Part shown: piece after piece, positions 36,692-61,526 of the stretch | Numbering within the stretch: the first letter of the stretch is position 1 | Layout of the letters: the number at the start of each line of letters is the position of its first letter | Assembly: GCA_028290465.1 (NCBI GenBank) | Contig: JAQGJU010000136.1 | Location: forward strand, 1-64,000 | DNA: 64,000 nucleotides | Origin: Xanthobacteraceae bacterium | GTDB lineage: Bacteria > Pseudomonadota > Alphaproteobacteria > Rhizobiales > Xanthobacteraceae | Direction of reading: 5' to 3' | Notes under the pieces: model-generated | The model's input: the letters and a program-made list of their open reading frames with translations, nothing else | Told to the model about the DNA's origin: nothing | Database searches by the model: none | Position numbers and translations under genes: made by a program

Positions 36692-37028
36692 TGGCCTTCC
36701 GCAGGCGCGCTTTCAAGAGATTCCCATGGTAGCGATGCCGCGCCGGGGATGCGAGGCCCCGCCATGCCGCAACGGTAGAATTCACGTCATTGTCGCATAA
36801 AGGCTGCAGATCGCGGCGCCTATCCCTACTGCTACGCCTCCAATTGCCATAACGTATCGCTACGTGCGATTTGACGTCGCACGATCGTGGGACGCCTTCC
36901 ACTTAGAGCGCGTTCAGCAAAAGTGGACACGGTTTGGCGTCCGAACGCGCTCTAACTCTTTAAAAGGACGCGTTTTCTTAACGCGAACCGGATTCCACTT
37001 CGCTTGAAAACGCTCTAGAAAGAAACGC
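36692..37028. other. Intergenic region before the Kef-type antiporter
   Basis: The 337-bp gap holds no gene. Its right third is two-arm repeat copy 3. A small dyad, GTGCGA-TTTGACG-TCGCAC, lies near 36863-36881. No clear promoter was found. Confidence 0.4.
36906..37018. repeat. Two-arm hairpin repeat, copy 3
   Basis: Arm A here reads GAGCGCGTTC ... GAACGCGCTC. The CC/GG step of copies 2 and 6 is changed to TC/GA on both strands of the stem, a compensating change. Arm B is CGTTTTC ... GAAAACG with one imperfect inner stem. It ends only 10 bases before the antiporter ATG, so it forms the end of that gene's leader. Confidence 0.78.
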
Positions 37029-39352: not shown

Positions 39353-39443
39353 GCGTTTTCTTCACATGAAGAAAACGCGTCTTTCTAAACACTTAGAGCG
39401 CGTCCGGACGTAAAACCGGTGTCCACTTTTACTGGACGGCTCT
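39353..39443. repeat. Two-arm hairpin repeat, copy 4 (shortened arm B, reverse orientation)
   Basis: Reading on the minus strand, arm A has GTAAAA/TTTTAC inside a GTCC/GGAC stem. Arm B is reduced to CGTTTTCTTCA/TGAAGAAAACG and lacks the inner GAAGTGG stem. The shift from GCAAAA/TTTTGC to GTAAAA/TTTTAC is compensated on both sides, as in copy 1. Confidence 0.72.
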
Positions 39444-48362: not shown

Positions 48363-48411
48363 GGGAGTCTCCCGGTCGTCGTCACAAACCTGCTCGGCGT
48401 CAGTCTGTCTG

Positions 48412-48466
48412 TTCCCCTCCCCCCGCGAGCACTTGCGAGTGGTGGGGAGGGGTTAGGGGTGGGGGG
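48412..48466. repeat. 55-bp G/C-tract repeat, left arm flanking the DUF559 gene
   Basis: The 55-mer begins TTCCCCTCC and ends GGGGTGGGGGG. It can fold on itself through CCCCTCCCC/GGGGAGGGG with an inner CACT/AGTG hairpin. Its inverted partner at 48847-48901 matches in 54 of 55 positions. The DUF559 stop codon TAA lies inside it, in the CCCCTAACCCC stretch of the minus strand. Confidence 0.85.
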
Positions 48467-48839
48467 ACGACCTTGATCCATCGTTGAGCGTTGCGTGGAT
48501 CTTTGTCATCACCGCCTCAATCTCGTTCAGCACTTCGTTGTTCCAGAACCGTAGAACGCGATAACCCTGCTCGGAAAGAAACCGGGTTCGCGCGGCGTCC
48601 GCGAGCATCTTCGCATCCTCAGCATGACCGCCACCGTCAACCTCGATGATGAGGCGATTAGTATGGCACGCAAAATCAGCGAAGTAGGGACCGACCGTTG
48701 CTTGCCGTCGGAAATGGTTTTCTGCTCCTAAGCCTCGCCGAAGGTGCCACCACAGCTTTTTCTCGGCATCGGTCATGGCACGACGCAATTGTCTCGCGCG
48801 GGGAACCCGGGTGTCCGTCTTGCGCAACGCTTGTGGCAT
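48453..48839 (-). CDS. DUF559 family (Vsr-like nuclease fold) protein
   Basis: The 128-residue protein fits DUF559/MTES_1575-like proteins with a restriction-endonuclease-like fold. It shows [42 protein letters not shown] (carrying the D and the E-x-D active-site-like residues) and [23 protein letters not shown]. The ATG at 48839 lies seven bases after the right inverted repeat, whose G-run may act as ribosome site. An ATG five codons earlier lies inside the repeat. The last residues SPHP and the stop come from the left repeat. It interrupts the beta-oxidation gene block. No nuclease activity has been shown for most members. Confidence 0.85.
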
Positions 48840-48846
48840 CGCTTCG

Positions 48847-48901
48847 CCCCCCACCCCTAACCCCTCCCCACCACTCGCGAGTGCTCGCGGGGGGAGGGGA
48901 A
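48847..48901. repeat. 55-bp G/C-tract repeat, right arm flanking the DUF559 gene
   Basis: It is the reverse complement of the left arm at 48412-48466 with a single difference (CACTTGCGAG on the left, CACTCGCGAG here). The two arms enclose 380 bp that are nearly all DUF559 coding sequence. Related but shorter elements lie at 61481-61516 and 61551-61638, there without a gene. Confidence 0.85.
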
Positions 48902-48929
48902 AAGAGGCACTTCACGTGATCGATATCGA

Positions 48930-60788: not shown

Positions 60789-61526
60789 TCACCCCAAACA
60801 ATCCTTCGCTGCGAACGCATATAGCCGCCGATCGCCCAGCATATGCGCCGTGAAGGCGCGCGAGCCGAACACCACCGAGAACGCCGCATGCCGCACATTG
60901 AGCCCGCCCGCATAGGCGCCGCAGGCCGGCATCACCATCGCGCGTCCGTCGGTCGCAAAACAACGCCGCGCCACCGCGCGACCACGACTGGCGATGCGGG
61001 CCATCGGATGCAGATGGCCGGAAATCTCACCGTCCGGCGCATTGCGGCTCGGCTCATGGCGAAACGTAAGAGGACCGAGCGCGAGGATGGTCGCGAAATG
61101 CCCGCCGATGCCTTCGGCCGGTTCCGGATCGTGATTGCCGGCGATCCACAGCCAGTCGCGGCCGCGCTGCAAATCGACCAGCGTCGTGCGGTCCGTGTCG
61201 GACAGTCGCGCCGGTCCGTCGCCATCGTGGAAACTGTCGCCGAGTGCGATCACCAGGCGCGGCGCATATCGGGCGATCAACTGTCCGAGCAGGCCCAGCG
61301 TCGCACCGGTATCGTAGGGCGGCAGCAACATGCCGCGCCGCGCGAACGACGAGCCTTTCTCCAGATGCAGGTCGGAAACCACCAGCAGGCCTTGGTCCGG
61401 CCAGTACAGCGCGCCGGCCCGATCCGCGACCAGCGTCACGCCCGCGAGTTGGATTTCGCCCGCGTCAAATGATGACGGCTCCCCTCCCCCTTGCGGGGAG
61501 GGGTCGGGGGTGGGGGTATGAAACAT
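60789..61526 (-). CDS. pdeM: Ligase-associated DNA damage response endonuclease PdeM
   Basis: The metallophosphoesterase has all calcineurin-type motifs: LLVVSDLHLEKGSSFARRG, ALGDSFHDGDGPA, WIAGNHDPEP and GHLHPMARIAS. The family is linked to a Lhr-type helicase and a DNA ligase in bacterial repair. The N-terminus is unclear. From the ATG at 61526 the first 20 residues (PTPDPSPQGGGEPSS) are translated G/C-tract repeat. The family's own sequence begins about residue 23, where a GTG at 61439 is the only nearby alternative. A longer frame to 61667 is mostly repeat. It lies downstream of lhr on the same strand. Confidence 0.85.
   Translation of the reverse strand: MFHTPTPDPSPQGGGEPSSFDAGEIQLAGVTLVADRAGALYWPDQGLLVVSDLHLEKGSSFARRGMLLPPYDTGATLGLLGQLIARYAPRLVIALGDSFHDGDGPARLSDTDRTTLVDLQRGRDWLWIAGNHDPEPAEGIGGHFATILALGPLTFRHEPSRNAPDGEISGHLHPMARIASRGRAVARRCFATDGRAMVMPACGAYAGGLNVRHAAFSVVFGSRAFTAHMLGDRRLYAFAAKDCLG

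Follow-up and report, generated by a model that had tools for sequence, protein, structure and literature searches.

A 64,000-nt stretch of DNA from a Xanthobacteraceae bacterium (assembly GCA_028290465.1, contig JAQGJU010000136.1; hereafter the window) carries a small gene of the DUF559 nuclease family in the intergene between thiolase and fadJ, neighbours that were recognised by eye from their translations. The gene lies between two inverted copies of a palindromic repeat, which raises the question of whether gene and repeat travel together. We suggest, with a probability of about two in three, that this cassette is a copy of a widespread mobile element, in which a Vsr-like DUF559 nuclease gene stands between two inverted arms and which resembles the system of REPINs (paired repetitive extragenic palindromic, REP, sequences) and RAYTs (REP-associated tyrosine transposases). 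Within this explanation, each nuclease is dedicated to one arm type, that of its own element, and every arm consists of a GA-rich hairpin joined to a tail. The enzyme would recognise, and nick or cut, its cognate hairpin or tail, both in the element itself and wherever solo copies lie, and the element would be inserted, replaced or removed by repair that takes another copy as template. Gene-less arms would be non-autonomous copies, like miniature inverted-repeat transposable elements (MITEs) or REPINs, and single hairpins would be what remains once everything between the half-palindromes is lost. The observations behind this proposal are the bracket itself, its recurrence, the matching of arm and protein types, the solo copies, the constraint on both protein and arms, and presence and absence at orthologous sites.

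A sequence-only reading of the locus had described inverted repeats of 55 nt with one mismatch. That pair is present, and the actual arms are slightly longer: 59 nt, 97% complementary with two mismatches, and 380 nt apart (Table 1). Both have the same layout, namely the stem strand CCCCTCCCC, a loop, the strand GGGGAGGGG, the three bases TTA and then the tail GGGGTGGGGGG, whose first nine bases equal GGGGAGGGG with one A-to-T change. Both arms fold as hairpins, with z values of −3.0 for the right arm and −1.9 for the left arm. The arm core CCCCACCCCTAACCCCTCCCC has exact matches within the window only at the two cassette arms (0.00 expected from shuffles). The DUF559 gene fills the space between the arms, as had been described, and its stop codon TAA (48453-48455) is the TTA that separates stem from tail in the left arm. 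The stop codon was thus placed correctly in that arm, which encodes three C-terminal residues of the protein in full and a fourth in part, not the full four that had been counted. The G-run of the right tail was also located correctly: it ends 7 nt upstream of the ATG, which is the likelier start than the upstream GTG, and judging from its sequence the right tail can serve as the ribosome site of the gene.

Table 1. Coordinates of the cassette and of a related arm core in the window
Feature	Position	Strand	Remarks
Left arm (hairpin + tail)	48408..48466		59 nt, 97% complementary to 48847-48905
Left-arm hairpin	48414..48452		stem CCCCTCCCC (48414-48422) / GGGGAGGGG (48444-48452)
Left-arm tail GGGGTGGGGGG	48456..48466		holds the last codons of the gene
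DUF559 nuclease gene	48453..48839	-	128 aa from ATG 48839; 133 aa from GTG 48854
Right arm	48847..48905		tail 48847-48857, hairpin 48861-48899
Right-tail G-run at ribosome-site distance from the ATG	48847..48852	-	read from sequence; putative function
Related arm core CCCCACCCCCGACCCCTCCCC, outside the cassette	61495..61515	-	2 mismatches to the cassette core; pattern match only

The same architecture recurs at DUF559 genes elsewhere. With bracketing called at an inverted-arm score of at least 16, inverted "hairpin + tail" arms enclose 150 of the 196 DUF559 genes that have both flanks, all sets taken together (family 23/29, phylum 16/30, named relatives 54/74, extra paralogues 54/60, own genome 3/3). 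For the named relatives with enough flank the count is 50/72, compared with 2/267 control segments from the same loci; the flank windows differ between this count and that of the 196 genes. The loci are mostly the best-scoring among the matches listed, and not all are independent. Two loci (L031 and L079) were left out, as were eight named loci with short flanks from the count of 72 and eight of 204 loci from the count of 196. The expected tie between DUF559 genes and such repeats is thereby borne out beyond the window. The tails resemble the stem strands generally, with an identity of 0.82 versus 0.70 for shuffled tails (218 arms, a wider set). No report of a link between DUF559 and such repeats was found in searches of the open-licence PMC literature, in which most papers were covered through their listing.

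A housekeeping explanation would make DUF559 a Vsr-like repair enzyme, with ordinary terminators or REPs flanking a short intergenic gene by chance. It can draw on the Caulobacter DUF559 protein VsrA, which has been proposed for very-short-patch repair (PMC12907096), and on the phylum-wide loci, at about half of which arms are missing. However, the control segments above were almost never bracketed, and random segments of one genome with several DUF559 genes (G126) reached a score of 20 in 0/3000 and of 16 in 6/3000 cases. The matching of arm and protein types and the presence, absence and replacement of cassettes at one site, both described below, also speak against it, and we consider this explanation very improbable.

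Arm type follows protein type. By eye, the closest named relatives (Rhodoplanes, Tardiphaga, Rhodopseudomonas and Methylocystis) mostly have the arm type of the window, and the Rhizobium relatives have another. Arm similarity tracks protein similarity: when arms were reshuffled among the paralogues within each genome, 0/5000 trials reached the observed value (z 3.4; 23 genomes with at least two armed paralogues and 253 genome pairs, with 38 excluded for homologous outer flanks). A window-type protein, defined by 131 bits or more, was found in 37 of 296 family genomes, and the cognate arm core is present in all 37. Core copies beyond the two per cassette occur in 31/37 of these genomes, in 79/179 genomes with another strong DUF559 match and in 10/80 with a weak match or none; 13 of 5000 within-genus permutations reached the observed association between the window-type protein and extra copies. 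The core pattern read backwards had no match in the 296 genomes. GA-rich hairpin repeats as a whole are found in 290/296 family genomes, with medians per Mb of 11.9 (strong DUF559), 3.4 (weak only) and 6.7 (none), the cassettes' own arms being counted here, as the two arms per cassette were subtracted only in the core-copy counts of the 296 genomes and not in the general hairpin counts.

These data also bear on the idea that another enzyme, either a HUH transposase of the RAYT or TIRYT type or an unknown one, mobilises the arms and that DUF559 is cargo profiting from its position. TIRYT genes, which form TIRtrons, are likewise flanked by terminal inverted repeats (TIRs), some of them self-complementary, and the motif GGGGWSAS shared by some of these TIRs fits tails like GGGGTGAG, although the enzyme described there is a HUH tyrosine transposase (PMC3733652). 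Solo copies in genomes where the window-type DUF559 was not found agree with this idea as well. The tracking of DUF559 type by arm type within genomes does not. A phmmer search with the E. coli RAYT of 2.0 Mb from G126, whose genome has 10 DUF559 matches, gave nothing at E values up to 10; considering that it covered about half of one genome with one seed, this result counts only weakly against a HUH enzyme or an ordinary transposon. We regard mobilisation by another enzyme as unlikely.

The genome that contains the window holds further copies. In its 155-contig assembly, the exact core CCCCACCCCTAACCCCTCCCC occurs nowhere beyond the two window arms, and the related core CCCCACCCCCGACCCCTCCCC, which differs by two bases, has six matches; the four of these six sites that were read are all two-arm solo elements. 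Seven PF04480 matches correspond to six loci, at four of which the gene is intact and at two broken, and all six adjoin hairpin arms of varying sequence (by eye). Both arms are complete at four loci, and a further one (L001) is cut by a contig end. Of the two decayed copies, one (G000:C31:35352, L006) still has both arms with what is left of the gene between them and could plausibly be an intermediate on the way to a gene-less element, and the other (G000:C11:193-506, L007) has a partial left arm.

If the cassette is mobile, empty sites should exist, and one was found at the thiolase-fadJ junction of a congener (G001), where the gap is 64 nt long and holds neither hairpin nor gene; the G001 genome (81% complete) has no DUF559 match. 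Of 30 fadJ junctions, 15 were parsed by pattern, the window's own included, and the other 15 were left out. No DUF559 gene was seen by eye at the other 14 parsed junctions, one of which (G080) has a two-arm solo element and another (G069) one arm. In a different genus (G070), the junction has a single hairpin equal to the right-arm hairpin of the window minus one G (38/39). The fadJ DNA next to it is 74% identical to that of the window, and the loop of this hairpin was found in no other locus of the set compared. This suggests either that the cassette was lost and a single hairpin stayed behind or that insertion took place at a hairpin.

Two other junctions also bear on turnover. The cassette L085 has 101-nt arms with one mismatch by eye, and 14 of the 29 other congeners fetched have gaps of at most 35 nt at the same junction, hairpin-free by eye. 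At the same junction, L257 has inverted arms nested like the layers of an onion, with lengths that include 126, 59, 58 and 43-50 nt. They surround a gene resembling that of L085 by eye, as if the unit had grown by inverted duplication.

At the second junction, g53, 28 of 30 fetched genomes of one genus were parsed and two were left out. According to our assignment, nine have a cassette A, four a cassette B, eight a two-arm solo element (one of which, L302, has a weak arm score of 14), two a single hairpin (L300 and L310), and five are empty. Proteins of types A and B (L247 and L251) are 65% identical. On the flank tree, the states require 16 changes, versus a mean of 16.1 for shuffled labels; the tree is weakly resolved (4/25 inner branches starred), and the starred branches alone force at least four changes for cassette A and three for B. 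The dS (synonymous divergence) of the cassette genes, 0.67 and 0.87, is roughly double that of the neighbours (about 0.25-0.36), and their dN/dS (ratio of nonsynonymous to synonymous divergence) of 0.16 and 0.20 points to purifying selection. For cassette A, the dN of 0.480 at the right neighbour is taken for a frame artefact, and the dS of the same row is therefore not to be relied on. The p-distances are 0.02-0.04 for the arms, 0.15-0.21 for the sequence between them and 0.06-0.07 for the flanks. We conclude that elements replace one another at this site and that protein and arms are both under constraint. With several element states in close relatives, the g53 junction offers a ready natural experiment. 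In L285 and L288, cassette A and solo elements have a right hairpin whose end lies directly before the ATG of the next gene, and this hairpin could provide that gene's ribosome site (GGAGAAGGAAAGATG in L285).

The window protein matches Pfam DUF559 with an E of 4.3e-36, a family whose Pfam description is one of unknown function. At E <= 0.001, a Pfam scan of the protein gave only DUF559 and MTES_1575, the latter below its own cut-off, and no Y1 domain (PF01797); the cut-off of TIGR00632 (Vsr) was missed, with 13.3 bits versus 97.85. Comparison of the predicted structure (mean predicted local distance difference test score, pLDDT, 78.7) with known ones gave Z scores of 15.5 for N. gonorrhoeae NGO0050 (3hrl), 12.7 for the I-Bth0305I homing-endonuclease domain and 10.5 for Vsr. 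By this model, the fold is of the Vsr/homing-endonuclease type, PD-(D/E)XK/EDxHD. Putative active-site positions E, D, E-x-D and H are retained in 201-204 of 204 proteins and are presumably the residues behind the EDxHD name. The acidic and histidine residues and the predicted fold are shared with Vsr and with EDxHD homing endonucleases such as I-Bth0305I. The I-Bth0305I structure (3r3p) is by its PDB name a mobile intron protein, whereas the DUF559 gene stands on its own in an intergene, enclosed by palindromic arms. The EDxHD family is named in PMC6083498 and PMC9403480, and the membership of YcjD/DUF559 in this nuclease fold was already known (PMC1189080, PMC9403480). In Caulobacter, VsrA is reported to be responsible for an SOS response in cells without a cytosine methylase (PMC12907096), and DUF559-type proteins may therefore act on DNA in vivo.

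The best structural match among characterised proteins being a homing endonuclease, DUF559 might be a homing-type nuclease that parasitises pre-existing palindromes, so that the gene is copied into cut hairpins and the repeats themselves are not spread. The single hairpins at cassette sites (two at the g53 junction and that of G070) agree with this. However, sites without a cassette can also be free of hairpins (5/28 at the g53 junction, and G001), and in many cases the left and the right arm have unlike loops (e.g., L115, L118 and L120). The arms are therefore not plain copies of a single target hairpin, and such duplication was rejected as their general origin. We consider homing into existing hairpins rather doubtful, and our confidence in it overlaps with that in the preferred explanation through the common cutting step, so that the two need not sum to one.

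Compared with known systems, the proposed element is most readily likened to REPIN/RAYT systems (REPtrons). In both, one enzyme gene is tied to palindromic repeats, with many non-autonomous paired copies and repeat-specific enzymes, and the repeats are more numerous where the enzyme gene is present, as has been described for RAYTs (PMC8049555, PMC3733652). Two inverted palindromes with a short spacer and dispersed copies, as in REPINs, were found as solo units at the four CCCCACCCCCGACCCCTCCCC sites read of six and at 8/28 g53 junctions. The comparison with RAYTs made in the sequence-only reading is apt in its logic but does not extend to membership: the cassette enzyme is a PD-(D/E)XK Vsr-like nuclease by its predicted fold and not a HUH/Y1 enzyme, and by eye the GTAG tag is absent from both 59-nt window arms. 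RAYTs are also described as single-copy and vertically inherited (PMC8049555), whereas DUF559 cassettes occur as several diverse copies per genome with turnover of sites. As in insertion sequences, there are terminal inverted repeats, and target-site duplication, which is usual though not universal in insertion sequences, was in general not seen. Among 112 cassettes, the shared direct word has a mean length of 3.57 versus 3.43 nt and reaches at least 7 nt in two, the 8-nt word at L085 being taken as chance.

The lack of target-site duplication speaks against an ordinary transposon and is one of several results that weigh against the proposed element. Bracketing is not universal, as the phylum-wide loci show. 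Mismatched 5'/3' pairings of arms pass the threshold in 117/588 cases and directly oriented ones in 88/196, since the stems are palindromic and resemble one another from gene to gene; it is therefore mainly the tails that define arm orientation. Some genomes that lack the window-type protein are rich in solo copies (65 in G288 and 57 in G073), and up to 117 hairpins occur in genomes without any DUF559 match. At the window junction, the empty site is that of a congener and the single hairpin that of another genus, rather than of near-identical strains. Finally, cutting, binding and transposition are inferences. The earlier idea of a mobile cassette thus holds with respect to empty sites, repeat association and arm-protein matching, and movement by the cassette's own nuclease is the part that we infer. 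The proposal nevertheless gives DUF559 a testable role and the GA-rich hairpin repeats a possible origin, and, if true, the partnership of REPs and enzymes would reach beyond HUH transposases to nucleases of the restriction/repair type.

The CGTC-tagged REPs of Alphaproteobacteria are a further likeness, being REP-like palindromes without a known transposase partner according to PMC3733652. As partners of DUF559 they were rejected: three CGTC-type motifs lie within 250 nt of 0/196 DUF559 genes. Unlike the DUF559 flanks, those of GIY-YIG genes have such repeats. In 2.0 Mb of G126 (L316-L415), 12 inverted pairs score at least 24 and have a spacing of 250-700 nt. DUF559 genes lie within three of them and open reading frames (ORFs) matching Pfam GIY-YIG within six, and the other three are long repeats. 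The arms around the six ORFs are of the CGTC REP type (e.g., L372:7271-7665), and the architecture is that of the DUF559 cassettes. Seven of nine matches to a GIY-YIG profile in these 2.0 Mb score at least 25, and the others 14.5 and 8; the profile had been derived from the six ORFs just mentioned, which are themselves among the nine. In the same 2.0 Mb, 5/6 DUF559 loci reach 16. Among plasmids, where 33 records matched, CGTC-type arms were found at 6/9 named GIY-YIG loci fetched (L416-L421 among them), the counter-examples being Photobacterium (8.0), Rhizobium tumorigenes (7.5) and Planktothrix (16.5 and not CGTC-type). The one GIY-YIG gene in L001-L314 (1.15 Mb), near L133, has no arms (score 12.0).

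PMC3733652 reports CGTC repeats as not associated with transposase genes and, in dealing with intragenic elements, excluded hypothetical proteins shorter than 120 aa. The string "GIY" does not occur in the text examined of PMC3733652, PMC3116915 and PMC5082802, and no literature search was made for a GIY-YIG link. We tentatively propose, as a possibility somewhat short of an even chance, that DUF559 with GA-rich hairpins and GIY-YIG with CGTC REPs are unrelated tiny nucleases that mobilise major alphaproteobacterial intergenic repeat classes by cutting and template-directed repair. If true, these would be transposase-free mobile palindromes, and the CGTC REPs would gain their missing enzyme partner. 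The parallel makes the question of what spreads CGTC REPs directly testable.

Two minor observations concern other repeats. In E. coli K-12, an arm-like sequence, CCCCTCACCCTAACCCTCTCCCC..GAGGGG, lies about 170 nt past the ycjD stop codon (L108:6705-6741), with no second arm by eye. The window itself contains another pair of inverted repeats, 83 nt long and 2.4 kb apart (36905-36987 and 39361-39443), to which the arm sequence is unrelated.
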